DNA of 18,228 nucleotides from JALSIF01 sp026981635 [NCBI: bacterium] (GTDB lineage: Bacteria > 4484-113 > JALSIF01). The translations under genes were made by a program, and so were the position numbers. The DNA lies in contig JALSIF010000158.1 of assembly GCA_026981635.1 (NCBI GenBank), forward strand, positions 1 through 18,228. The letters run 5' to 3'. The notes beneath the pieces were generated by a model. That model made no database searches. It saw nothing but the letters and a program-made list of their open reading frames with translations, and was not told the DNA's origin. Each line of letters opens with the position of its first letter. Position 1 is the stretch's first letter. Of this stretch, positions 1-13,388 are shown one piece after another.

Positions 1-60
1 CCCTGCCTGCGGGGAGGGGGCTGGGGGGTGGGGTCAGCCTCGGGGAGGGCTCCTTGGGTT

Positions 61-66
61 ATACTC
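61..66 (+). promoter_or_regulatory. Possible -10 element (TATACT)
   Basis: TATACT lies nine bases before the ATG at 75, so a transcript starting at the usual distance would begin almost on that ATG and be nearly leaderless. No convincing -35 hexamer is visible at the expected spacing. The same hexamer occurs on the minus strand before the aldehyde dehydrogenase gene (16632-16627), which gives some support. Inference only. Confidence 0.3.
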
Positions 67-74
67 CCCTTGAG

Positions 75-470
75 ATGACCCCGGGACCCAAGAAGCCCTA
101 CCAGCCCCTTGAGCCACCGCCCCCTGGTCCCCTGCTGGGGCACCCCGGGGATCCTCTGCGCCAGCGGGTTCCCCTCACCCCCCGCGAGGCCATTGAGCGG
201 GGACGGGAGCTCCTCTCCCGGCTGGGCGGCCTTCAGTTTCCCGAGGAGCCTGCCCTGGGCGACTACCCCGCCTGGCAGCGGGGCCCCACCTCCCCCGCCG
301 GAGAGTGGGACCGCTGGCTGAGGGAGACCCTCAGGCGAATTGAAAAGCTGAACAGTGAGCTAAACAGTGCGGGAGTGCCCTACCGGCTAGTCCCGCAAAG
401 GGTGGAGCTTTCTCCCCGCCTGGAGGAGAGCCGCTTGCTGGTGGAAGTTAAACCCCGTGAGACGCCCTGA
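75..470 (+). CDS. Small hypothetical protein, proline-rich N-terminus
   Basis: I do not recognise this protein of about 131 residues (138 if translation starts at TTG 54). The first third is rich in proline and glycine. The middle and end contain charged helical segments such as REAIERGRELLSRLGG and a tryptophan-containing helix with WDRWLRETLRRIEKLN. There is no signal peptide or membrane segment. Two starts are possible. TTG 54 has GGGGAGGG four bases upstream. ATG 75 has no ribosome site but sits nine bases after TATACT, which fits a near-leaderless message, so I chose it. The gene runs toward the pseudo-nucleotidase gene on the other strand; the two stop codons are 3 bases apart. It may belong to an operon that begins left of the window. 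The reading frame looks genuine because of its amino acid balance, but no function can be given. Confidence 0.6.
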   Translation: MTPGPKKPYQPLEPPPPGPLLGHPGDPLRQRVPLTPREAIERGRELLSRLGGLQFPEEPALGDYPAWQRGPTSPAGEWDRWLRETLRRIEKLNSELNSAGVPYRLVPQRVELSPRLEESRLLVEVKPRETP

Positions 471-473
471 CGG

Positions 474-2804
474 TCAGCTTCGCCAGTAGGCAAACATCTC
501 CTCCCGTAAGAGGGCGTCAAAGCCCACCGTAATGGGACCGTCCACCGTGGTAAGGCTTGCCTCAAAGCGGTAGAGCTTGCCGCCGGCAACCGGCTTGGCG
601 TCGTTAGCAAGCCCCCACCACTGGGCGCGGTACTCCACCCCGGTCCCCGCCGGAAGCTGCACCTCCCGCTCCCGCTCCACATAGACGGTGTGGAAGGCGT
701 AGTTCCAGATCAGCTTGCCACTGCGGGGATCGCGCACCGCAAAGTCGGTCTCCTGCAGGGTGGGGAAGCGAAGGATTTTAAGCTCGTCGGTCTGGTTGAT
801 GACCTGGAAGATGAACCTCACCCAGGGCCTGCCCTTGTCGGGCTTTACGTAGTCCACCTTGAGCCGCAGGGTAAGCCCCCCCTTGCCCTCCTGCTCGGTC
901 TCCCCCAAAGGATAGACCTCCGCCCCCAGGGGCACCGTAGCGGGAGCCTGCCCAACCTGTCCGGTGGCAGTTTCGGTCTCAGTCCCAGTCGGCTTGGCCG
1001 GCTTGCCTCCACCTGGGCTGCCCCCCGCTCCCACCACCGGGACGGTCACCTCACCCGGACTGGGCATTTGGCCCTCCCCCTCCCGCTGAACCTCTACCTC
1101 AACCTCCTCTTCGCCCGCCGCTGGCTTCTCCTCTCCCTCCGGGGCGGGGGTCTCCAGCCCCTCGTAGGGCCTAAGCTCAACCTCCTCCACCTCGGCCACC
1201 TGCTCCTCAGCCTTGGGGGCCTGCGGTGGGGCGCTCACGAAGCGCACCGTCCCCTCCACCGGCGGCGTCAGGGGGGAGTTTCGCCGCACCCAGGCGATGA
1301 CCACATCCCGCAGGGTCTTGCCGCTGTTTTTGAGCACCTCCCCGTCGGAGAGGGGACGCTTGGTGGCCGGGTCGGTTCGTACCAGCTCGGCCAGCTCCAC
1401 ATAGCCATAGGCCCCGCCCACCAGGCTGTCCACCGTGGCCACCGCATAGAGCTCATCGGCCCTCACCGGCTCCCCGGCCACCTTCAGGTTATAGACCTCG
1501 TCGCCGAACACCTCGTAGCTCATCCCCGACACCTGCAGAAAGCCGGGACCGCCGATGTTTCGCACCGAGCGGGCGATCACCCTGCTCAGCACATCCCCCC
1601 TTAGGGTCAGCTTCACCACCCGGTCGCCCCCCGGGATCAGCCGATATAGGGTGCCCAGGGTGACCGGCCCGGCCTCAATCTGCCCCCGGATGAGGCCGGC
1701 GGGGATCATCCCCGCCTGGGCGTCCACATAGTCCCGCGCCGCCCTTGCCGCCATCACTCCGAGGGGGTTCTCCGCATTCATCAGGTTGGTAGCGGGGACC
1801 GCCCGGGGGGCCTCGGCGATCACCTGGGAGAGCTTGAGCTCCACCGACCGCTTGATCTGGGTGACCCGCTCCCTGACCTGGGGAGTCTCCTGCTGGGGGT
1901 GCTTGCCGTCCAGGGTGATGAGGCGAAAGTCAAAGTAGCGCAGGCCCACCCCCCCTTCATCCTTATTCTGGTAGGTGAGCTTGAGCTGCCCCACCGCCAT
2001 GCCGTCCTTGTAGGCCTCAACGATCAAGGTATCGCCCACCTGGTAGGGCTGACTGAGCAGCGCCCCCGATCCTCCCCCCACGATCACATTGATCTCCGGA
2101 TAGCGGGAGGCAAGCTTCAGGTTCTCGGTCACCCCCAGCTGACTGAGCAGCACGATGATGTCCGTCTTCTCCTTAAGTTCACCGAGCACCCGCCCCAGAG
2201 TCTCCTCGGGGTTCTCAAAGGTCACCCCCGAGGTGAGGGCTGGATTGAGGATCTCCGGGGTCATGGGATTTGAAAGGCCAAAGATGCCCACCCGAAGCCC
2301 CGCCTTCTTAAGCACCACGTAGGGCCTTCCGATGGGCTGGTTGGTGGTGGTGTCAATCACGTTTGCAGCCACCACGGCGAACTTGGCCCGGGCGATGCGT
2401 TCCTTTAGGACCTTTACCCCATAGCGGAACTCCTCCGGGCCCAGGCCCACCGCCTCATAGCCCATCAGGTTCATCAGCTCCACCTCGTAGTAGCCCTGCC
2501 CCAGGGTGGAGCTGGCGGTGGGGCCGAAGAAGCCCCCCGCGTCCACCAGCAGCCAGTCAAGGTCCTTGTGGCGGCGCCGCTCGGCGATGAGCCGCGCCCG
2601 GGCGTATGCCCCGCCCAGCACCCGCCCGTCAGCGGTGCGCAGGGAAAAGAGCTTCCCGCCGGTGTCGTTGGTGTGAAGGATGACCAGGTTGTGCAGCCCC
2701 CCCTCCTGCTGGGCCCCGACGGGGGCAGACCCACCCGGCACGGAGAGGAGCACCACCGCCCAAAGAAGCGATGCGATCCACCAAGGCCGAACCCTGCTCG
2801 TCAC
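474..2804 (-). CDS. Secreted UshA-like 5'-nucleotidase homologue, probable pseudoenzyme, with C-terminal BsuPI-like domain
   Basis: A 776-residue exported protein. The GTG at 2804 is chosen because AAGGGG lies seven bases upstream; the TTG at 2822 has no ribosome site. Residues 1-31 form a signal peptide ending near VGA/QQ. Residues 40-330 match the metallophosphatase domain of the 5'-nucleotidase/UshA family, residues about 342-520 the family's C-terminal domain, about 525-625 is a Glu/Pro/Gly-rich linker, and about 645-765 resembles the BsuPI (proteinase inhibitor, Ig-like) domain. The family normally needs Asp, His, Asn and Gln ligands. Here only the first Asp (D47 in HTNDTGG) remains. The other sites read DAGG, GPEEFRYG, LSQLG and GGGSG where the family has GD, GNHEFD, LSHLG and GGHxH/Q. 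The C-terminal domain has also lost its usual NGGGIR and FNxxGGDGY residues. I infer a non-catalytic binding protein. It lies 164 bases downstream of an NHL lipoprotein gene on the same strand. Confidence 0.85.
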   Translation of the reverse strand: MTSRVRPWWIASLLWAVVLLSVPGGSAPVGAQQEGGLHNLVILHTNDTGGKLFSLRTADGRVLGGAYARARLIAERRRHKDLDWLLVDAGGFFGPTASSTLGQGYYEVELMNLMGYEAVGLGPEEFRYGVKVLKERIARAKFAVVAANVIDTTTNQPIGRPYVVLKKAGLRVGIFGLSNPMTPEILNPALTSGVTFENPEETLGRVLGELKEKTDIIVLLSQLGVTENLKLASRYPEINVIVGGGSGALLSQPYQVGDTLIVEAYKDGMAVGQLKLTYQNKDEGGVGLRYFDFRLITLDGKHPQQETPQVRERVTQIKRSVELKLSQVIAEAPRAVPATNLMNAENPLGVMAARAARDYVDAQAGMIPAGLIRGQIEAGPVTLGTLYRLIPGGDRVVKLTLRGDVLSRVIARSVRNIGGPGFLQVSGMSYEVFGDEVYNLKVAGEPVRADELYAVATVDSLVGGAYGYVELAELVRTDPATKRPLSDGEVLKNSGKTLRDVVIAWVRRNSPLTPPVEGTVRFVSAPPQAPKAEEQVAEVEEVELRPYEGLETPAPEGEEKPAAGEEEVEVEVQREGEGQMPSPGEVTVPVVGAGGSPGGGKPAKPTGTETETATGQVGQAPATVPLGAEVYPLGETEQEGKGGLTLRLKVDYVKPDKGRPWVRFIFQVINQTDELKILRFPTLQETDFAVRDPRSGKLIWNYAFHTVYVEREREVQLPAGTGVEYRAQWWGLANDAKPVAGGKLYRFEASLTTVDGPITVGFDALLREEMFAYWRS

Positions 2805-2968: not shown

Positions 2969-4915
2969 CTAGCCGGAGGGGAGGGGTACCAGGGTGAAGT
3001 TCATGATCTGGACGGTGCGCTCGCTGATGAAGAGGTCGCGCACCACCGTCTGGTAGCCCTCCTTGCTCACCGCAATCTGATACTGGCCCTCCTGGATGTC
3101 GTTGAGCTTGTAGCTCCCGTCAAGGCCGGTGGTGGTGCTCAGCGAGGTGCCCAGGATCTCCACCCTGGCCTGGTTGATGGGCAGGTTGGTGCCAAACTCG
3201 CGCACCACCCCCTGCACCCCGCCGGTGGTCACCCCAACAATGGGCTCCAGCACCAGGTCGCGGATGACCAGCTCGTCAGGGATCAGGTTTACCTCCCCCT
3301 GATCGGGCCTGAAACCCGCCTTGCTGCCGGTGACCACGTAGGTCCCCACCGGCAGGTTGTCCACCCGATAGATGCCCTCCGAATCGGACAGCACCGCCGC
3401 CACCAGGCCCAGGTTGTCGCTGATGGTGACGGTGGCCTCGGCCAGCGGGGAGGGCGGCTCGGTGGCGGAGCTGAACACGCGCCCGCCCAGGCTTCCAAAC
3501 AGCCGGTTGGGGGCTACCCGCTCAAACACCCTGACCCGGTCAAGGTCGGCGATGTAGACGGTGCCGGTGAACTCGTCTATGGCCACATCAATGGGGGCGA
3601 TCAGATTGTTGCCGGTAGTTCCAGGCAGGCCCGAGCCGATGTCGCGCAGGTGGAAGCCGTTTCGGTCAAACACCTGCACTCGCCGGTTGCCTGGATCGGC
3701 CACATAGATCTCGCCGGTGCGGTGGTCCACCGCCAGCCCGGCCGGCCCTCCCCCGGCCAGCCGCGGGTCCTCGGGCGGTCCCTGGCCGGCAAACTGGCCG
3801 GGAAGCGACCCGATGCCGGTACCGATGATGCTCTGGTAGCCGGTGGGGTTGGAGAAGACCGGAGGGGCCACACTGTACTCAAAGGGAACCGAGGAGATGT
3901 CGGTGACGATGCGCGAGCGACCATAGAAATCAAAGCTCAGGTTGAAGTCCTCATAGAAGCTCTCTGTCTCCAGGAACTGCCCCTTGGGGATAGATTCTCC
4001 TAGGGCGAAGCGAGAAGCCACCTCTTCGTTGGCTGCTCCCGTCTGGTCCCCAAAGACTCGGTCAAACAATGGTGCAGGGATGGAACCGGGAAACTCATCT
4101 CCCGCCTGTGGGCAGGTTACATCGTGTCCGCCACTGGGGACATAGGCTTGATAGAAAGAGTCGCCCCTGAGAAAATCAAAAATGATGATGGCACTCGGCA
4201 TTACCGGGGGGCTTGCCTGAGTACAGAGGGCTGAGACTCTAGCCCTTGCCACTATCTCTCCATTAGGCATAACTTCAAGCCCATTGAAGGAATTTATTTG
4301 GAACCATGCTTGCGCATCAGGTGGACGGGTCGTATTGGGAACCAGCCGACTCTCTCGGAAGAAGTTCCGGGGCAACCTCACAAACTTACCCGCACCCTGA
4401 TCAGGTCCAATGTTGATGTCGTCGTCCAAGTTGGGAGCAAAGATGGTAATTCCCGGGTTGTCGTCCGGACCCGGCTGTCCCATCACTACTGGATACTCAG
4501 GGAAGGGGAAGAAACTACCGTCGGCCAGGGGACTGACCAGGTTGGGCAGCACCTCCACATCCACCAAGGGGGTAATCGGGAGGGCACCCGCCTGCCCCAC
4601 CAGCACGCCGTCCTTGGTGAAGGCAAAGAGGTTGTTTTCAGTGGCCACATAGACATAGCCCGAGGATACCGCCACCGCCACCACCGGCGACTGGAAGGGG
4701 CCAAATTCCCCCGCCGCCCGGAAAATGGCCGGGTCGCTGGGGTCTCCCCCCGGTGGGTTCCTACGCGGGGTCTCCCCCTCCCCTCCGGTTCCACCAGCTC
4801 CTCCACCCACCTGGCCAGAGTCGCGGTTATCACCGCCACCCCCGCCACAGCTTGCCATCAGAAGCACACCTAGAAGTAGCGCCAGTCCAAGAAACCAAAC
4901 CGAGCGTAGTCTCAT
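2969..4915 (-). CDS. Lipoprotein with NHL-type repeats and two carboxypeptidase-regulatory-like domains
   Basis: A 648-residue lipoprotein. The signal peptide ends in LLMASC with the lipid-bearing Cys at 23, followed by GGGGG and a Gly-rich linker. Residues about 65-110 contain a beta-propeller-like strand pattern (VVAVAVSSGYVYVATENN). Clear NHL-like blades are at about 395-425 (GLAVDHRTGEIYVADPGNRR) and 440-468 (VAIDEFTGTVYIADLDRVRV). Two carboxypeptidase-regulatory-like beta sandwiches follow at about 475-545 and 565-645, each with the pattern G-x-V, then SDSEGIYRVDNLPVGTYVV or TGLDGSYKLNDIQEGQYQI. Such folds bind proteins or sugars and have no catalytic residues. The ATG at 4915 has a GTAGGG ribosome site five bases upstream. 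The gene is 67 bases behind the phospholipase-D-like gene and probably shares its transcript. Its middle third has much lower GC than the rest. The specific role is unknown. Confidence 0.85.
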   Translation of the reverse strand: MRLRSVWFLGLALLLGVLLMASCGGGGGDNRDSGQVGGGAGGTGGEGETPRRNPPGGDPSDPAIFRAAGEFGPFQSPVVAVAVSSGYVYVATENNLFAFTKDGVLVGQAGALPITPLVDVEVLPNLVSPLADGSFFPFPEYPVVMGQPGPDDNPGITIFAPNLDDDINIGPDQGAGKFVRLPRNFFRESRLVPNTTRPPDAQAWFQINSFNGLEVMPNGEIVARARVSALCTQASPPVMPSAIIIFDFLRGDSFYQAYVPSGGHDVTCPQAGDEFPGSIPAPLFDRVFGDQTGAANEEVASRFALGESIPKGQFLETESFYEDFNLSFDFYGRSRIVTDISSVPFEYSVAPPVFSNPTGYQSIIGTGIGSLPGQFAGQGPPEDPRLAGGGPAGLAVDHRTGEIYVADPGNRRVQVFDRNGFHLRDIGSGLPGTTGNNLIAPIDVAIDEFTGTVYIADLDRVRVFERVAPNRLFGSLGGRVFSSATEPPSPLAEATVTISDNLGLVAAVLSDSEGIYRVDNLPVGTYVVTGSKAGFRPDQGEVNLIPDELVIRDLVLEPIVGVTTGGVQGVVREFGTNLPINQARVEILGTSLSTTTGLDGSYKLNDIQEGQYQIAVSKEGYQTVVRDLFISERTVQIMNFTLVPLPSG

Positions 4916-4982: not shown

Positions 4983-6875
4983 TCATAGGAGGCCGCCACC
5001 TCCCCCACCGCCGGGGAAGCCGCCGCCTCCACCACCGCCGGGGAGACCGCCCCCGCCACCACCACCGCCCAGGCCGCCGCCCTGCTCGGGCTGCTGTGGG
5101 CGGGTGTTAATGGACAGATTGATCTCCCTCACCGCTCCCGGCCCCAGCAGGAACTCAAAGTCGGTGGGCTGGAACTCACCGCTCACCAGCGCTCCTCCCC
5201 CCACCGTCTGGGCAGTAATGGTAATGGTGACCCGCCCAGCAGGTACCACCTGCAGGTAGGTAAAGTCGGGGTTGGTCACCTCACTTCTCTCAAAGCCCAT
5301 CACCGGCGGAGCACCACCGAAGATGGTGTTGAAGTCCTGCCCGCTGAACCAGTCAGTGCCTGTCACTTCAAAGCTCACCGAGATGGGCACCTCCTCGGTC
5401 TGACCACCGCCGAGGGCTCCCCCATCCTGCTGGTCCCCCTGCTGAACGGTGATGGTGGGGGTAAAGCCGATTACCTTGCCAAACACCACTCCCATGGGCA
5501 CCGGGTGGCCCGCAACCCCCGCCACCACGTCGGTGGGGTAGGCGTAGAAGGTGGACCAGATCTGGCCGTAGTCCCGCATGGGGACCGAGTTGTCGTCCAG
5601 GTTGATGCCCTGGGGGATCACGTTGCGGCTGGGGTTGATGAAGCCCACATACTTGGAAACCACCGCATCCCCCCGAAAGACCAGCATCACCTCGTCGTTG
5701 AGGTCCATCCCGTTGGGGGTGAAGTTGGCGGTGGTGATGATGAGCGAGTCGCCGAAGTGGCGGAAGGAGCCGTCGGCGATGGTGGGCGGGGCATCAATGT
5801 AGATGTATTTGAGGTTGAGGGTGTTGTCCGGGTAGCTCACCAGCTGCCCATCCAGTACGTTTACCGCACCGCTCTCTAAGTTTGCCTGGGTTTGCTGAGC
5901 GCCTCCGATCTGTCCTTGGATATCCTGCACAATCTGGGCCAAAATTCCGCTGGTTATCACATCCGGATCATTTACCGTGATAAAGAAGCCCTTTGGATCC
6001 TCCGGGTCGGAATACCACTCCTGGAAAGTCCTAAACAGGGCCTGGTCGTTGAACTGCTTGACCGCAATCCACAGGTGGCTGCCGCGCTGGATGGCGCTGG
6101 CGATCTGGTCGCGCAGGTTGTCCACCGGGCCGAAGAAGACGTCCACCGTACCGATGGGGTTGCCATTGATGTCGCGGGCGATGACAAAGGTCTGCTGGGT
6201 GGCCCGCCGCTTTTCAATGCCGAAGTTGCCCTCGGCAAACATCTGGTTGAACTCGGTGGCAAAGGCCTGGGCCACCTGGGTGTTTCGGATGATCACCACG
6301 TCGCCGATGTGGCGGTCCACCCCCTCGGTGGAAAAGTCGTAGTTGCCAGTGATCACTACCGCGTTGTCAATCACCACGAAGCGGCTGTGCATCAGCCGGG
6401 GAAAGCCGTCCTTATCGGTATGGACGTTGATGCCCGCATTGATCAGCTGGAGGTAGAAGGGTCGGTAGGCGGGGTCCTCAAAATAGGCTTTCTCCGTCAC
6501 CACCCTGACCCTCACCCGGCCCGCCAGCGAGACCAGCAGGTCCACCAGCTCCTGCCGGTTGATGCGCATCACCGCAAGGTCAATGCTTGACTGGGCGGTG
6601 GAGAGCTCGGCCAGCACCGGGTCTATATCCAGCCGGTTGTCGGAGAAGTTGCGGTTGCGAAACTGGACGTCCACCATGGCAAACTCCACGTTGGGTGCCT
6701 GGTCGTCACCGGGCACCTGCGGAGCCGCACTGCCAGTCTGCTCCCCCGGCGGGATATTGGGCAGGTCATCACTCACCTGACCAGCCCCGCCCCCGCCGCC
6801 GCCACATGAGAGGAGCAGCAACGAAAGGACGATCCCCATGAGGACTAGAAGGAAAGTTGACCTAGGGGTTCGCAT
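4983..6875 (-). CDS. Phospholipase-D-like lipoprotein with altered HKD motifs and glycine-rich tail
   Basis: A 630-residue lipoprotein with lipobox LLLLSC (Cys 24) followed by six glycines. ATG 6875 is preferred because GGGAGA lies seven bases upstream and the signal peptide begins directly; longer reading starts lack this. Residues about 68-205 form the first phospholipase D fold half (family PLDc_2), with MHSRFVVIDNAVVITGNYDF around 162-181. The second half, about 240-405, has NLKYIYIDAPP at 354-364 and TTANFTPNGMDLNDE near 381-395. The family motif is HxKx4D in both halves. Here the first is H163-x-R165-x4-D170 and the second N354-x-K356-x4-D361, so one Lys and one His are replaced and catalysis is doubtful. 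A beta-rich region (about 440-600) and a C-terminal run of glycine clusters follow. The gene starts a probable unit with the NHL lipoprotein 67 bases downstream. Confidence 0.87.
   Translation of the reverse strand: MRTPRSTFLLVLMGIVLSLLLLSCGGGGGGAGQVSDDLPNIPPGEQTGSAAPQVPGDDQAPNVEFAMVDVQFRNRNFSDNRLDIDPVLAELSTAQSSIDLAVMRINRQELVDLLVSLAGRVRVRVVTEKAYFEDPAYRPFYLQLINAGINVHTDKDGFPRLMHSRFVVIDNAVVITGNYDFSTEGVDRHIGDVVIIRNTQVAQAFATEFNQMFAEGNFGIEKRRATQQTFVIARDINGNPIGTVDVFFGPVDNLRDQIASAIQRGSHLWIAVKQFNDQALFRTFQEWYSDPEDPKGFFITVNDPDVITSGILAQIVQDIQGQIGGAQQTQANLESGAVNVLDGQLVSYPDNTLNLKYIYIDAPPTIADGSFRHFGDSLIITTANFTPNGMDLNDEVMLVFRGDAVVSKYVGFINPSRNVIPQGINLDDNSVPMRDYGQIWSTFYAYPTDVVAGVAGHPVPMGVVFGKVIGFTPTITVQQGDQQDGGALGGGQTEEVPISVSFEVTGTDWFSGQDFNTIFGGAPPVMGFERSEVTNPDFTYLQVVPAGRVTITITAQTVGGGALVSGEFQPTDFEFLLGPGAVREINLSINTRPQQPEQGGGLGGGGGGGGLPGGGGGGGFPGGGGGGGLL
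4986..5093 (-). repeat. Low-complexity glycine-codon repeat at the 3' end of the PLD-like gene
   Basis: The last 36 or so codons are mostly glycine, arranged as clusters of seven or eight Gly separated by LP, FP or LL. At DNA level these are imperfect direct repeats of about 27 bases made of CCGCC and CACC blocks on the plus strand. Such tracts are prone to slippage in length. The frame stays open to a TGA at 4983-4985. Confidence 0.6.
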
Positions 6876-6896
6876 CTCACATTCTCCCATCAGTTT

Positions 6897-6910
6897 CCTA
6901 CCCGGGTAGG
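6897..6910. promoter_or_regulatory. 14-base perfect palindrome in the leader of the PLD-like lipoprotein gene
   Basis: CCTACCCGGGTAGG reads the same on both strands. It lies 22 bases upstream of the chosen start and 9 bases before the GGGAGA ribosome site, where a bound dimer or a folded leader could affect expression. One such palindrome is expected by chance in a sequence of this length, so only the position makes it suggestive. Confidence 0.25.
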
Positions 6911-6983
6911 CGTCCTGCCCCCTTCCAGCCGGACCGCGTGCAAGCACTCCGTTTCCCCTATACTCCCAGTGAGGCATGCACCA

Positions 6984-7014
6984 TTCCCCCGGCGGGGGAA
7001 AGCTGCCCTTTTCC
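6984..7014 (-). promoter_or_regulatory. Possible alternative hairpins in the leader of the PLD-like gene
   Basis: TTCCCCC (6984-6990) can pair with GGGGGAA (6994-7000). The overlapping GGAAA (6997-7001) can pair instead with TTTCC (7010-7014). The two helices exclude each other and lie within the roughly 155-base leader predicted from the promoter at 7037-7064. No known riboswitch consensus was recognised. Confidence 0.2.
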
Positions 7015-7036
7015 AGCCTGGATGGGGAGCCGTGGC

Positions 7037-7064
7037 ATTATACCCCTTCCGCTCGCCAGCCCAA
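7037..7064 (-). promoter_or_regulatory. Promoter for the PLD-like lipoprotein gene
   Basis: On the minus strand, a perfect TATAAT occupies 7042-7037, with TTGGGC (7064-7059) sixteen bases upstream as a weak -35. Transcription would start near 7030, giving a leader of about 155 bases before the ATG at 6875. It sits just behind the end of rfbD (stop at 7073-7075), so the lipoprotein genes need not depend on rfbD transcription. Confidence 0.5.
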
Positions 7065-7072
7065 ACCAAATC

Positions 7073-7933
7073 CTAGCCTGTCGCCCCACTCTCCAGCTCC
7101 CTCAGGTAGGCCCCGACCTCATCCTCCACCCGGGGGAAGGGCCCAAGCTCTACCTCCGTCCGGCTGATGTCCAGGACCGAATAGTTTGGACGCTCGGCGG
7201 GCCGGTTTAGTTCCCGGCTGGTGATGGGGACCACCAGCTCCGGGTCGGCGCCGGAAAGCCCAGCAATCAGCCTGCCGTAGCCAAACCAGCTCCGCTCCCC
7301 CCGAAGTCCCACCTGCCAGACTCCACGCCTCCCCCGCCAGGCCAGCTCCACGCTCGCCCAGGCCGCCACCCGCGCGCTGGTCAGCCGGGTGGTCTGGTCG
7401 TCCACGATCCTCACCACCTCCCCCGCCCTGAGCCGCTCCCAGACGGTGCGCACAAAGTTTTTCCCCGCCCCAAACAGTCCGCTCAGGCGGATGATTAGGC
7501 AGCCCGGGTCAGCCGCTTTAGCCGCCAGCTCGCCGATGAGCTTGCTGAGCCCATAGACCGACAGGGGGCTGGGGTCGACCTCGGGGGGAATGGGCTCGCG
7601 GTGGCCGTGGCCAAAGACATAGTCGGTGGAGAAGAAGACCAGCCGTCCCCCCGCCTGCGCCACCGCTTGGGCCACCACCCCGGGTGCCACCCCGTTTACC
7701 CGCACCGCCAGCCGCTGCTCCCCTTCGGCCCGGTCAACGTTGGTGAATGCGGCGGTGAGAAAGACCACCGTCCCCGGCCCCACCAGACCGGCCAGCCGCT
7801 CCGGTATCCGCTCAGGTTCGGCGAGCTCCAGGGCCGAGCGCTCCACCACCAGACAGGAGATCCGGCGCCCCATCAGCTCCCCCTCCAGCGCCCGGCCAAG
7901 CTGCCCGTAGCCGATTACCAGCGCCCGCTCCAT
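7073..7933 (-). CDS. rfbD: dTDP-4-dehydrorhamnose reductase
   Basis: A 286-residue protein of the RmlD branch of the extended short-chain dehydrogenase family. It reduces dTDP-4-dehydro-L-rhamnose to dTDP-L-rhamnose with NAD(P)H, the last step in making this cell-surface sugar donor. Visible features are the nucleotide-binding IGYGQLG at residues 7-13, LTAAFTNVDRAE at 59-70, STDYVFGHG at 102-110 (family form STDYVFDG), the catalytic pair Y127-x3-K131 in VYGLSK, KNFVRT at 158-163 and a C-terminal RPNYSVLD. I chose ATG 7933 because the frame upstream runs through the SRP RNA gene and does not look like protein. No ribosome site is evident; TAGGCT lies seven bases before the ATG, so a leaderless message is possible. 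The other rml genes are not in the window. Confidence 0.9.
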   Translation of the reverse strand: MERALVIGYGQLGRALEGELMGRRISCLVVERSALELAEPERIPERLAGLVGPGTVVFLTAAFTNVDRAEGEQRLAVRVNGVAPGVVAQAVAQAGGRLVFFSTDYVFGHGHREPIPPEVDPSPLSVYGLSKLIGELAAKAADPGCLIIRLSGLFGAGKNFVRTVWERLRAGEVVRIVDDQTTRLTSARVAAWASVELAWRGRRGVWQVGLRGERSWFGYGRLIAGLSGADPELVVPITSRELNRPAERPNYSVLDISRTEVELGPFPRVEDEVGAYLRELESGATG

Positions 7934-8152: not shown

Positions 8153-11065
8153 TCACATGGGCATGTCGCCCTCCCGCGGCTCAAGGGGGATTTCCTTGAT
8201 CAGGTCTGCCCCCTGGACGCTCACCATCTCGTGGAAGGGAACGAAGCCAAACTTGGCTCCGTTGAGCATCCACTGGCCCTCGGTCACATAGACCACGTAG
8301 CGGCCGTCCCGGAGGGAGCGGTAGACGTGTAGCGGGTCGTCAAAGAAGGGCACGCCGGGACCGGCACTGCCACCTCCGCCACCGCCGCCAAAGTCCCCCC
8401 CCACGGAGGGGTCAGGGTCACCGATCCACACGTTGGCCTCAGCGATGGGCTGGTCGGTGCCTGCCACCACCACCCTTCCGGTGATGGCGAAGAAGACCGG
8501 TCCATTCTCCAACCGCGGCTCAAGCTCCACCGCCAGGTCGGTGTCCTCGGAGACCTCCACCTGCTGGTGGTAGGGCTGGTAGTTGGGGTGAAACACGGTC
8601 AGGTTCCAGACGCCGGGGAAGACCTTGAGGTCAAAGGTGCCGTCCTCCCGGGTGATGTCCCTGACCAGGGCGGCGATCTCCGGGCAGGGCTGATCGGGCA
8701 GGCAGTTGGGACTACCCACCGCCCGCACCCTAGCAAAGGACACCGGCTCACCGGTGGTGCTGTCCACCACCCGGCCGGTCAGGTGGAGGGGCTCGGGGGG
8801 CTGGATGGTGCGCGGCTCCATCTCAAAGTCAAACTGAGTCTCGCCGCGGATCACCAGCTGGTGCCGGAAGCGCTGATAGCGGGGGTGGACCGCATTGAGC
8901 ACCCACTCGCCGGGGTGGATCACCCGCATCTCATAAAAGCCCTCCCGGTCGGTGATGGCCTCGCCCCCTACCACCGCCGGGTGGGCCAGGCCGTCGTCGG
9001 GATAGGTGAGCCACAGCTCGGCCCCGGCGATGGGCTCACCGGTCTCGCTGTCACGCACCTGCCCCTTGAGCACGGTGGGCTCGGGCTCCACCTCGCGAGG
9101 CTCCAGCACCACCCGGAAGAACTTGCTCTCCCCCGCCTCAAGCAGGAAGGTCTCCTCGTGGGGCCTGAATCCCCGGTGGGTCACCACCAGTGCCCAGCGC
9201 CCCGCCGGCACCCGGGGGAAGAGGAAGTGGCCGTCAGGTCCCGTCTCGGTGGAGAGGCCGGGGATGTCGGGGGGCAGCGGACCACCCGGTATGCCCGGCG
9301 CACTGTCGCCGGCACCACCGGAGCCGCCCGCGCCGGGAGGCGGTGCCGCCTGGGCCACCTGGCGCCGCACCGGCATGTCGTCCCGCCCCAGCGGGATCAG
9401 GTGGACGCTGGCTCCCTCCAGCGGCTGGGGCTCGGCGCTGTCCGGCGTGCGAGCAAGCACGACGCCCGCCACCTGGCCCACCTGGGGCTCAAACATCTTG
9501 AGCAGGACCTCGTTGAGCCCCACCTCCACCTTGACCAGTTCGGGCACCCCGATCAGGCCCGGCTTGTGGGCCATGGCCAGGTAGATGCCCACCGGCAGGC
9601 GCAGGTGGAAGTTGCCGTTCTCGTCGCTTTGGGTCTCAAAGATGAAGTCCGCCCACGGCTTGGGCCTGCCCTGCTCGTCCCAGGGGTCCTCCCCACCGGG
9701 GAAGGCGGTTCCGCCCTCGTCGGAGGGCCCCATGGGGAAGCCCTCGCCGCCACCGCCCGGGCTTGAACCGCTCTCCGGCGGCAGACTGGGTCCGCTAGGG
9801 CCTCCTGGTCTAGGGGTCAGAAGTACAAAGAAAACGCGGGCACGGGCAACACCGTTGCCGTCGTTTACCCTAACAACCTTGCCCCTCACAAAGCCGAGAT
9901 CTACCGGTTCCAGAGAGAAGTTTTGCTCTACCCTTTCCCTGTCTAGACGGATGGTAGCTCGGGCCGGTCGGTAGCCCTCTTTAGTCACATAAAGGTCCGC
10001 CGCTACCCCTTCAACGTTCTCAAACCGGTAGTTGCCTTGGGCGTCGGTACGCGTAATACGGTAGAAGCGTGGATGGGAAGGACGGGAAGGCAAACTGCTG
10101 CCCTCCCCATCGTTTGCACCGCTATAACCCCTTACGGGAGCTTCCGGACTGACTGCTCCCTTTCCACGGGCGTCTGGACGACCATAGCGGGGATCATCGG
10201 GCCGGCGCTCAAACTCCCCAGCACCTGCGACATCCTCAGTCATCTGACCATTGGCTGCTGCCATTGGTTCAGGAGCCTTGCGGAAGATGAATAGCTCAAC
10301 CAAAGCGCCTGCCACCGGCTCGCCGGTAGCCCGGTCGGTGACCTTCCCCACTATGGTGGTACCGATATCAGGCGGACCACCCGATCCCACCGGCCGCAGG
10401 ATGAAGTCCTTGGTAAGAACCCCCTCCTCAGGCACCGTCACATTGGCCAGAGCCGGACGGTAGCCCCGCTTGGAAGCAATCATCAGGGCCTTACCAGCGG
10501 GAGGGTTGAGGAATGAATAGCTACCATCTTCTTCCGTGATTTCCAGGAAAACTGCCCCCGTACCACTAACCAGGATTACCTTAGCACCGGCTAGGGGGAT
10601 CACCATGTCACCCTCCTCAAGGGCAAATACGGTTCCCCTCACTTCCCTTACGGGAGGTTGAGGAACCGGATCATCTCCAGGAAGTCCAGCCCCAAAGCTA
10701 AAGCCGGTCTGACCACCTTGGCCTGCCCCGGCCGAGATCTCCCGCTCGGCCAGGGGAATGAGACTGCCGCTCTCGTCGCGCAGGGCCACTCCGATGCGCT
10801 GGGCCTGGGTGAGACGGTTCCTTTCTATCTCAAAGAAGCCGTTCTCGTCGGTGACGATGCCGGTGTCCTCCCCATCCAGCAGAACCACCATCCCGGCCAA
10901 GGGCTGACCGCTGGCGTCGGTGAGGCTGGCGGTGAGGCGCTCACCCCCTGTTCCCGGCGAACCTCCGGTGGGGCCCGCCACTCCTCCGCCCCCGCCGCAG
11001 GCGGCCAGGGCAAGCATGAGGACCAGCACAAGGACCCCGCTTGCTAGCCTTGTCCTTCCTCTCAT
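8153..11065 (-). CDS. Large lipoprotein of eight tandem carboxypeptidase-regulatory-like domains
   Basis: A 970-residue lipoprotein. ATG 11065 has AGGAGGTG about six bases upstream and opens a signal peptide ending LALAAC (Cys 23), followed by five glycines. Eight beta-sandwich repeats of the CarboxypepD_reg type lie at about 44-112, 141-226, 237-388, 392-527, 531-657, 664-753, 760-851 and 859-965. Typical pieces are G-x-V-x-D-x-x-TGEPVAGA, DAQGNYRFENV and VTKEGYRPA. Domains 3, 4, 5 and 8 each carry a Gly/Pro-rich insertion (about 15-70 residues) in the equivalent loop after the second or third strand. No enzyme motif is present, so a stalk, scaffold or ligand-binding surface protein is inferred. 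Domains 2 and 3 lie in a block of lower GC. A promoter and a set of AATTGG repeats precede it; a strong terminator follows. It shares its architecture with the gene upstream. Confidence 0.88.
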   Translation of the reverse strand: MRGRTRLASGVLVLVLMLALAACGGGGGVAGPTGGSPGTGGERLTASLTDASGQPLAGMVVLLDGEDTGIVTDENGFFEIERNRLTQAQRIGVALRDESGSLIPLAEREISAGAGQGGQTGFSFGAGLPGDDPVPQPPVREVRGTVFALEEGDMVIPLAGAKVILVSGTGAVFLEITEEDGSYSFLNPPAGKALMIASKRGYRPALANVTVPEEGVLTKDFILRPVGSGGPPDIGTTIVGKVTDRATGEPVAGALVELFIFRKAPEPMAAANGQMTEDVAGAGEFERRPDDPRYGRPDARGKGAVSPEAPVRGYSGANDGEGSSLPSRPSHPRFYRITRTDAQGNYRFENVEGVAADLYVTKEGYRPARATIRLDRERVEQNFSLEPVDLGFVRGKVVRVNDGNGVARARVFFVLLTPRPGGPSGPSLPPESGSSPGGGGEGFPMGPSDEGGTAFPGGEDPWDEQGRPKPWADFIFETQSDENGNFHLRLPVGIYLAMAHKPGLIGVPELVKVEVGLNEVLLKMFEPQVGQVAGVVLARTPDSAEPQPLEGASVHLIPLGRDDMPVRRQVAQAAPPPGAGGSGGAGDSAPGIPGGPLPPDIPGLSTETGPDGHFLFPRVPAGRWALVVTHRGFRPHEETFLLEAGESKFFRVVLEPREVEPEPTVLKGQVRDSETGEPIAGAELWLTYPDDGLAHPAVVGGEAITDREGFYEMRVIHPGEWVLNAVHPRYQRFRHQLVIRGETQFDFEMEPRTIQPPEPLHLTGRVVDSTTGEPVSFARVRAVGSPNCLPDQPCPEIAALVRDITREDGTFDLKVFPGVWNLTVFHPNYQPYHQQVEVSEDTDLAVELEPRLENGPVFFAITGRVVVAGTDQPIAEANVWIGDPDPSVGGDFGGGGGGGSAGPGVPFFDDPLHVYRSLRDGRYVVYVTEGQWMLNGAKFGFVPFHEMVSVQGADLIKEIPLEPREGDMPM

Positions 11066-11123
11066 CGCTGACACCTCCTTATTTCTCTCCTTGGCAAGCC
11101 AGGCCTGCCCGCTTACCAGGGGC

Positions 11124-11152
11124 AACATACCCCCGCCCTCTGCGGATGACCA
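11124..11152 (-). promoter_or_regulatory. Promoter for the 970-residue lipoprotein gene
   Basis: On the minus strand, TGGTCA (11152-11147) and TATGTT (11129-11124) are separated by 17 bases, each matching four of six consensus positions. The start would be near 11117, giving a leader of about 50 bases with the AGGAGGTG ribosome site. The AATTGG repeats begin just upstream of the -35. Confidence 0.5.
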
Positions 11153-11154
11153 GT

Positions 11155-11213
11155 CCCAATTGGGGCCGATTTTGAGTGAGCCAATTGGAGCTGCGGGGAG
11201 GCGGAAAAATTGG
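11155..11213. promoter_or_regulatory. Three AATTGG sites at exact 25-base steps (possible operator array)
   Basis: AATTGG occurs at 11158-11163, 11183-11188 and 11208-11213, each 25 bases from the next. The first is inside the palindrome CCCAATTGGG (11155-11164) and the second inside CCAATTGG (11181-11188). GAGCCAATT (11178-11186) and AATTGGCTC (11208-11216) also form a 9-base inverted repeat. The array lies directly upstream of the -35 of the large lipoprotein gene, a usual place for regulator binding. The MocR promoter has related half-sites (15012-15045). Confidence 0.5.
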
Positions 11214-11234
11214 CTCCCCCCTTCCATACCCCCC

Positions 11235-13388
11235 CTAGGGGGCGAGGGGAAAGCGCACCAGCACCGGAAGCTCAGGCAGAAGTGGGTTGAACTCGCCGCG
11301 CTTTATCAGGGTGGGAAGACCCGGCCCGGAGACCTCCACCAGGAATAGCTCGGGCAGCCCCTCAACCGGCAGCCGCGCGATGCCCAGCTGGTTGGTCTCG
11401 CCCTGGGCAAGCTGGTTCCTCTCCAGGTCCATCACCCTGACCGTTGCCCCCACCACCTTCTGGTTGCCCTGCTCGGTCACCCTAAACACCTCAACCTCCA
11501 CCACCGGCGTGGTGGCGGGGGTGCCGAAGCTGAGGGTGAGCTCAAGCTCCCGGCTCTCCCCCGGTGCCAGTCGCAGGGTGGTAAGCAGGGTCTGGTGGAA
11601 GAGGGAGCGCACCCTAATGAGCAGCTCCCGGCCGGTGGGCACCTGGGAGAAGCGGAAGGTACCCCCTTCGCCGGCTAGGGTCTCCGCCACCACATCAAAT
11701 AGCCCCCCTGGTTTGCGCCGAGCAAACAGGCTCACCTGGGCGGAGGGGAGGGTCCCGATGGCATCCCGCACCACCCCCGAAACGGTGCCGTCCCTAGGCA
11801 TGGGCGGAAAGATTCTCTCCGGCTCCAGGAGAAAGCTGACCTCGCTGATGGCCGCCTCTCCCAGTTCCACCACCTGGGCCTGGGAACGAAAGCCGGGCAT
11901 AAATGCCACCACCTCCACCTGGTCCGGTTGCCCCGCCCCCACCGGCAGGAAGACCTGGTAGCCCCCGTCCGCCCCGGTCTGGGCCACCGAGAGTACTTGC
12001 CCTGCCAGGCTCCTCACCTGCACCACTACATTGACCCCCGGCCTGACCCCTCCCCCCTCCACTACGTTTACCGCACCGTGGATCAGCGCCAGGGCCGAGC
12101 CGCCGGCCAGGTTGAGGGTGATCAGCGGGTTGAGCCGCGCCCTCACCACCACCGGACGCATCACCTCCTGCCCGCCGGCGCTCACCCGGAGCAGAAAGAC
12201 CCCCGCCGGTGGCTCCGGGATGACGAAGGTGCCATCAGCTCCGCTCTGGACCGTGGCCACCACCTCCTCCCCCCGGAGCAGCTCCACCAGGGCCCCCGCC
12301 ACCGGCTGGCCCGCTCCGTCCACCACCACGCCGCGAAGCTCCCCCACCGCTACCGGCCCCAGGGCCAGGCTGAACTGGACCGTCTGCCCCTCCCCCACCG
12401 TCACCGGCAGGCTCGCCCCCAGGGTGCCCTGGTCAGTCTCCACCAGCGCCTCCAACACCCCCAGGCCGCTGGGGACGGTGAGGCTGAATGTACCATCGGC
12501 GGAAAGCTCCTCTTCCAGGTTGGGCAGGGTCTCCTCTTCGCTAAGCCTTGCGATGAAGCGCACCCTGCCCCCCCTAAACTGGCCGGCAAAGCTGAGCTCG
12601 CCCGCCACCTCCCCTTGGGCCAGGCGGGTGAGCATAAAGTCGTGCTGGATCTCCTCGGTGATCACCGAGACCTCCCTCACCTCGGGCAGGTACCCGGCCA
12701 TAAATGCCCCCAGCATCAGGGTGTCGGAGCGGATGTCGCCCACCATCTTGTAGTTCCCCTGTTGGTCGGTGAAGGCCCGCTGGAAGAAGCCCCGCTGGTC
12801 AAAGAGGACCACCTCGGCCCCCGCCAGGGGCGAGCCCTCCTGGTCCATCACCCGGCCGGTGAAGCGGTGGACCTCAAAGAAGCGCGGGTCGCTGCGGTCT
12901 ATCCCCTCCGGCTCGCCGATCTCGCAAAGGTTGCTGACCAGGGTGGTGTTCTCCGGCTCCCCGCTCACCTCCACCGGGAAGCTTGCGATGGACACCCCGT
13001 CCCTTACCAGCTCAATCAGGTGGGAGCCAGGGGGAAGGTCGGGGATGAAAAAGACCCCCTCCTCGTCGGTCTTCGCCACGATGGGCTCGCCGTCCACCAC
13101 GATCTCGTAGTCGGCCACCGGCTCCCCCTCCCGGGAGACCACCACGGCAGCAAATTCCCCTGGCTCGTCGGCCAAACTGGGAGGCGTAGCACTGGGGTGG
13201 GGTGGAACATCCAGAGCACCTTCGGGCAGGGGAGGCGGGACCACCACTTGGCCCGGCGGCCCCTCCGGCTTGCCCCGGCCACTGCCCCCACAGGAGGTAA
13301 CTACCAGCCCTATGAGGGCAACAAGCACGAACCATAAATACAAAAGGCATGGTTTTTCCCAGACTTTCATCTTTACTCTCGCCATCAT
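11235..13388 (-). CDS. Lipoprotein of about seven carboxypeptidase-regulatory-like domains
   Basis: A 717-residue lipoprotein. The signal peptide ends LVVTSC (Cys 33), followed by GGSGRG and a Pro-rich linker. Seven beta-sandwich units can be traced at about 79-142, 175-255, 260-345, 349-430, 434-523, 534-622 and 627-717. Clear examples are GRVMDQEGSPLAGAEVVLFD with DQQGNYKMVGD, and GVVVDGAGQPVAGALVELL with GADGTFVIPEPPAG. No catalytic motif is visible; a surface scaffold or adhesive role is inferred. Tandem ATGs at 13388 and 13385 follow GGGGGTG by five bases; the ATG at 13370 is an alternative with a weaker ribosome site. It starts 23 bases after the MocR gene stops, so the two are probably one operon. 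A CCCCCTAGGGGG sequence spans the stop codon, but no clear terminator follows. Unlike its neighbours it shows no internal GC drop. Confidence 0.86.
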   Translation of the reverse strand: MMARVKMKVWEKPCLLYLWFVLVALIGLVVTSCGGSGRGKPEGPPGQVVVPPPLPEGALDVPPHPSATPPSLADEPGEFAAVVVSREGEPVADYEIVVDGEPIVAKTDEEGVFFIPDLPPGSHLIELVRDGVSIASFPVEVSGEPENTTLVSNLCEIGEPEGIDRSDPRFFEVHRFTGRVMDQEGSPLAGAEVVLFDQRGFFQRAFTDQQGNYKMVGDIRSDTLMLGAFMAGYLPEVREVSVITEEIQHDFMLTRLAQGEVAGELSFAGQFRGGRVRFIARLSEEETLPNLEEELSADGTFSLTVPSGLGVLEALVETDQGTLGASLPVTVGEGQTVQFSLALGPVAVGELRGVVVDGAGQPVAGALVELLRGEEVVATVQSGADGTFVIPEPPAGVFLLRVSAGGQEVMRPVVVRARLNPLITLNLAGGSALALIHGAVNVVEGGGVRPGVNVVVQVRSLAGQVLSVAQTGADGGYQVFLPVGAGQPDQVEVVAFMPGFRSQAQVVELGEAAISEVSFLLEPERIFPPMPRDGTVSGVVRDAIGTLPSAQVSLFARRKPGGLFDVVAETLAGEGGTFRFSQVPTGRELLIRVRSLFHQTLLTTLRLAPGESRELELTLSFGTPATTPVVEVEVFRVTEQGNQKVVGATVRVMDLERNQLAQGETNQLGIARLPVEGLPELFLVEVSGPGLPTLIKRGEFNPLLPELPVLVRFPLAP

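Follow-up and report, generated by a model that had tools for sequence, protein, structure and literature searches.

The gene at positions 474..2804 of the minus strand, in the 18,228-nucleotide stretch of DNA analyzed here (the window), raises the question of what a 5'-nucleotidase homologue does once nearly all of its active site has been replaced. The window comes from a genome of GTDB 4484-113, a phylum that is paired with Candidatus Niteriota in a table of a review (PMC11382960). The first-pass annotation, made from the letters alone, had read the gene as an intact frame of 776 residues encoding a pseudoenzyme kept for binding. We recover the same frame (GTG start, stop codon at 474-476) and the same family affiliation, and find an orthologue in each of the ten genomes of the phylum that were searched, all of them open and without an internal stop. 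A scan of the genome contigs with the single protein returned no relatives; those discussed below come from an alignment-based scan of the contigs, which confirmed 162 loci, the 80 best of them being retained.

The protein, all of whose parts lie on the minus strand, begins with a signal-peptide-like N terminus recognized by eye (residues 1-31, 2712..2804), in which a hydrophobic stretch is followed by PVGA-QQ. In the predicted structure, which has a mean pLDDT of 85.9 over residues 34-776, a UshA-like two-domain fold spans residues 34-523, and its top solved match is Escherichia coli UshA (1oi8; VIA-align Z 40.1, rmsd 2.5, 467 aligned residues), in keeping with the earlier claim of an intact fold. 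The alignment supplied for modeling contained the window protein and 46 of 63 listed references, with L078, L093, L110 and lower-scoring rows already excluded. The first of the two domains has the metallophosphoesterase fold (residues 37-300, 1905..2696, borders approximate); it is recognized from the model and its alignment to UshA, and a Pfam search found no Metallophos domain (PF00149) within an E-value of 0.01. The second is a 5_nucleotid_C domain (PF02872; residues 337-468, 1401..1796; 70.7 bits against a cut-off of 23.6). Beyond it lie a Pro/Glu-rich linker (residues 543-621, 942..1178), which is the single disordered stretch of the model (pLDDT below 50), and a BsuPI/IPI immunoglobulin-like domain (PF12690; residues 661-753, 546..824; 34 bits against a cut-off of 22.9). 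Across the ten orthologues, Pfam finds PF02872 and BsuPI in every one, Metallophos in one (E 0.0023) and PGA_cap in two.

Within this framework the active site has been dismantled. In what we take to be UshA numbering, D41 and H43 correspond to D47 and G49 of the segment D47-T48-G49 (2658..2666), where T48 stands for H42; D84 corresponds to G91 (2532..2534); the stretch N116-H117-E-F-D120 has become P123-E124-E-F-R127 (2424..2438); H217 corresponds to Q222 (2139..2141); and H252 and Q254 correspond to G245 and G247 of the segment G245-S-G247 (2064..2072). These assignments rest on sequence alignments with UshA, the Thermus thermophilus 5'-nucleotidase and relatives rather than on structural superposition; the phmmer match to UshA stops before H252, and the H252 and Q254 equivalents were taken from 3ivd/2z1a and the family alignment. 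They agree residue for residue with the map of the first-pass annotation. Only one of the seven ligands of the dinuclear metal center (D41, H43, D84, N116, H217, H252, Q254) remains and both members of the catalytic dyad H117/D120 are replaced, leaving D41 as the sole survivor of the eight metal or catalytic positions scored, of which Q254 was counted as retained if His or Gln. By comparison, 83 of the 100 other rows of our 110-row alignment retain all eight. The nucleotide pocket of the C-terminal domain, which we take to consist of two arginines and two asparagines in UshA and CD73, reads M342, P368 and D394 in the window protein, with R373 alone retained.

The loss is concentrated at the active site. 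The comparison covered 52 columns in which 88 homologues show at least 80% conservation; following the UshA/CD73 literature, we assign 12 of them to the active site. The window protein deviates at 10 of these 12 and at 6 of the 40 other conserved columns (p 2.5e-5 by a Fisher test that treats columns as independent), while the homologues deviate on average at 0.5 of 12 (at most 6) and 3.3 of 40 (at most 12). Its nine orthologous relatives deviate at 5-10 of the 12 and 4-7 of the 40 (p 0.022 to 2.5e-5). The test set aside 12 of the 100 non-orthologue rows as ligand-poor or fragmentary; truncated stretches of the G004 orthologue (L146) and of a G005 paralogue (L145_26) were among them. Against the UshA/CD73 family (COG0737; PF00149 plus PF02872), then, the likeness lies in the two-domain fold and the structural core columns, and the difference in the absence of seven of eight metal or catalytic positions, of both pocket asparagines and of a PF00149 match, and in the additional linker and BsuPI domain. 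We consider the window protein almost certainly a pseudoenzyme, and presumably an exported one. A literature search on pseudoenzyme nucleotidases and catalytically inactive UshA returned nothing on this subject, as judged by title.

Other departures from the canonical site were seen in proteins of this fold. In the UshA-like rows L079, L028, L032, L019, L030, L075 and L114, all from outside the phylum, most readable metal ligands are replaced, with L032 reading D-N-N-N-N-N-N-K across the eight positions; from these alignments, ligand loss looks recurrent in the UshA-like fold. Six further proteins (L045:220-1635, L046:3630-5042, L047:3997-5559 and 5663-7210, L048:4661-6232, L049:4325-5932) combine UshA-like N domains with four following CxxCH haem motifs; three of the six were run through Pfam. 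Most of their metal ligands are replaced, and all six have a CxC motif, which is CGC in the five whose start is printed. They are reminiscent of the UshA-like selenoprotein family with a CxU motif; the models NF041198 and NF049981 are described as UshA-like (seleno)proteins with CxU or CxxU motifs (PMC13188914). Among NCBIfam models the window protein itself scores highest against NF041198, though its 145 bits stay under the cut-off of 275, and it contains no cysteine at all.

The loss had been described as uniform, a description that the orthologues do not bear out, because four relatives keep five or six of the eight positions. The window copy and the three copies of family f4 retain one each, the two of f3 retain two and one, and the four of f2 retain six, five, five and five; the canonical ligands thus persist in part, in that the f2 proteins share D84, H117, H217 and H254, and no orthologue has all eight. 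Two ligands of the metal site, N116 and H252 (columns 123 and 245), are gone from all ten. The intermediates bear on whether the protein might still be an enzyme, working with one metal or none on an altered substrate. The f2 relatives, in which D41, D84, H117, D120, H217 and H254 are found and five to six of the eight positions are kept, could on this pattern have weak activity. For the window copy, however, we consider such an enzyme unlikely: it and five relatives retain only one or two of the eight positions, there is no cysteine, and the pocket asparagines are missing throughout. Moreover, the replaced positions, whose conservation the annotation had proposed to examine, show no conserved replacement residue at 49, 91, 124, 127 or 247 when the six copies with the heaviest losses are compared.

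The pocket likewise bears on the idea that the protein is a sensor, binding a nucleotide or UDP-sugar without cutting it. The UshA-like two-domain body and R373, retained in nine of the ten orthologues, would suit such a role. However, the asparagines at columns 368 and 394 are gone in all ten, the phosphate-binding arginine at column 342 is gone in eight (with lysine in two of these), and glycine replaces the stacking aromatic of the PFGN motif in the window and f4 copies, though an aromatic persists in f2 and one f3 copy. Given these losses of asparagines and arginine, nucleotide binding by this family is unlikely, and we regard a sensor as quite improbable. The statement that the protein was kept for binding was therefore too broad: its nucleotide-binding sense is not favored, while a protein- or envelope-binding role would fit better because of the BsuPI domain and the amj gene that adjoins it in the relatives (see below).

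A tree was built, with the nine ligand columns omitted, from 39 rows that we selected among the 110; in it the ten orthologues form a single clade (support 100/98). Its sister rows, under a root that we placed rather than computed, are five proteins from four of the ten genomes, G001, G005, G007 and G008 (joint support 98/96), four of which carry all eight positions while the fifth, L149, is without H117. In that fifth protein (L149:1477-3024, from G005) the metal ligands are retained and the catalytic His and Asp are gone, NHEFD having become NGEFS. The window copy groups with f4 (87/92) on a branch of length 1.26. In the simplest history, the gene was duplicated before the families diverged, a single initial loss followed, and erosion then proceeded separately in each lineage. 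No intact full-length paralogue was found in the window genome, f3 or f4 at an E-value of 1e-10; hence, within the limits of incomplete genomes, the dead copy appears to have outlasted the live one there.

Five stand-alone 5_nucleotid_C proteins of about 210-230 residues, each with a signal-peptide-like start, occur in the window genome and its f3/f4 relatives: L169:2017-2643, L170:84-731 and L171:260-901 on the minus strand, and L173:6523-7149 and L174:2041-2730 on the plus strand. PF02872 is the sole Pfam domain of the two examined (L169 and L173), and three of the five genes adjoin a release-factor-2-like gene, as identified by eye.

The relatives show that the gene is under selection. Between the congeners G006 and G003 its dN/dS is 0.113 over the whole gene (N domain 0.097, C domain 0.123, linker 0.168, BsuPI 0.062), within the range of eight comparison genes, namely Amj (0.086) and seven others (0.065-0.207); the gene names miaA, BamA-like and LpxD-like were given by eye from sequence. 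Between G007 and G008 it is 0.239, near Amj (0.223) and the intact nucleotidase (0.235). The ratios were computed with our own Nei-Gojobori (NG86) script at dS values of 0.56 to 1.48 and are rough; they cover the relatives. The long branch of the window gene would suit a functionless gene in decay. Nevertheless, frames open in ten of ten genomes, the value of 0.11 between the congeners, which bears on the relatives, the conserved fusion and the confident UshA-like model make decay highly improbable, and on this point the first-pass annotation was right.

The slowest-evolving part of the protein is the BsuPI domain, which might itself be the working part, an exported binder or inhibitor of a peptidase, with the dead nucleotidase merely its carrier. 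The C-terminal 150 residues, folded separately at a pLDDT of 94.1, match Bacillus subtilis IPI (3isy) at Z 13.7 (rmsd 2.1, 114 aligned residues; next match Z 9.2), so that the domain resembles IPI in both Pfam score and fold. One paper reports inhibition of Isp1 by IPI and describes docking compatible with it, yet also raises doubt that IPI is a true inhibitor and suggests protein-protein contact (PMC3901451). Unlike IPI, the window domain is fused to a dead nucleotidase, and inhibition by it is only putative. Further, the nucleotidase body is strongly constrained (0.097 and 0.123), beyond what a passive carrier would need, and this reading leaves amj unexplained, so we hold it to be doubtful. 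The domain occurs in one copy per genome, always within the pseudonucleotidase gene, in all ten genomes, and its fusion was not found outside the orthologues of this gene among 168 loci examined.

The neighborhood supplies a different lead. All nine relatives have amj (PF10997, "alternate to MurJ") as the gene that follows downstream in the same orientation; in G001 and G005 it was located by tblastn. The gap is -50 to +3 nucleotides in seven relatives, the -50 being computed on the longest open frame, and 53 and 196 nucleotides in the two f3 genomes. Over the 9-19 kb compared, only the pseudonucleotidase and amj are common to the f2, f3 and f4 loci. PF10997 matches occur in nine of the ten phylum genomes versus nine of 279 genomes outside. 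The flanks of 72 further UshA-like loci (L060-L131), followed for up to 8 kb or to the contig end where that came sooner, gave no amj; nor did any nucleotidase lie in the 1.5 kb, or as much of it as the contig covered, around the Amj matches of the nine genomes outside the phylum. The window locus shares the pseudonucleotidase alone with those of its relatives. Its contig continues for no more than 473 bases beyond the gene, and this stretch, amj's place in the relatives, is occupied by a convergent open frame (3..473, plus strand) that runs off the contig end. As the window genome, 85% complete, also gave no match to Amj (PF10997), either the pair is broken there or amj is unassembled. On the other side of the gene, three frames of the minus strand (2969-4915, 8153-11227 and 11235-13388) have lipobox-like starts, judged by eye, and carboxypeptidase-regulatory repeats, and a fourth (4983-6977, minus strand) encodes a PLD-domain protein whose C-terminal tail is rich in glycine and whose start, likewise judged by eye, is lipobox-like.

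Amj is an alternate flippase in Bacillus. SEDS proteins are present in all ten phylum genomes, and hence a peptidoglycan wall is likely in the phylum. MurJ gave a match in five of the ten, above the cut-off in three and there at 30-35 bits, as against 12 of 14 control genomes. A literature search on Amj, flippases and nucleotidases found no partner protein for Amj. Adjacency may mean shared expression only. In B. subtilis, furthermore, MurJ and Amj are reportedly not essential for growth, and the inviability of cells lacking both is said to be relieved by more of the lipid-carrier enzyme (PMC12096821); this would make the weight of an Amj partner less certain.

Taking sequence and model together, we propose, with a probability of roughly 0.6, that the protein serves Amj as a scaffold in the envelope without catalysis of its own, and that it derives from a duplicated UshA-like nucleotidase. 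An UshA-like nucleotidase would have been duplicated in the ancestor of the phylum, one copy remaining an ordinary nucleotidase that is retained in one family. The other would have acquired the C-terminal BsuPI domain on its flexible linker, come to adjoin amj, and shed both metal site 2 and the asparagines of the nucleotide pocket, after which the remaining ligands would have eroded lineage by lineage, nearly completely in the window's branch. The protein would then partner Amj in a non-catalytic role, outside the inner membrane, its two-domain body serving as a scaffold and its BsuPI domain perhaps holding a protein partner where lipid-linked precursors emerge. The loss, the single clade, the fold, the fusion, the selection on the relatives and the amj adjacency in nine of them are read from sequence or model; the order of events, the export and the role outside the inner membrane are what we infer from them. 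For the relatives we see a partnership with Amj as roughly an even prospect; for the window copy it is less probable and would have to be inferred twice over, since its genome gave no amj. More tentatively still, the protein may throughout the phylum be a dedicated exported subunit that is made with Amj and docks either on Amj itself or on the lipid-linked precursor delivered by it; the two would then form a main two-protein flipping system here, with MurJ weak or missing. The retromer protein VPS29 is a metallophosphoesterase fold reused as a scaffold; the likeness would extend to that idea, and the pathways are unrelated.

Thus, we describe a pseudoenzyme family whose fusion architecture is seen here only in this phylum and which has a strong gene-neighbor link. 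The need for Amj and MurJ in flipping is currently disputed, and the adjacency to amj offers a genomic lead to a partner of a poorly understood candidate lipid II flippase. With its shared losses, living intermediates and intact sister copy, the family also preserves a stepwise record of the passage from enzyme to non-enzyme.
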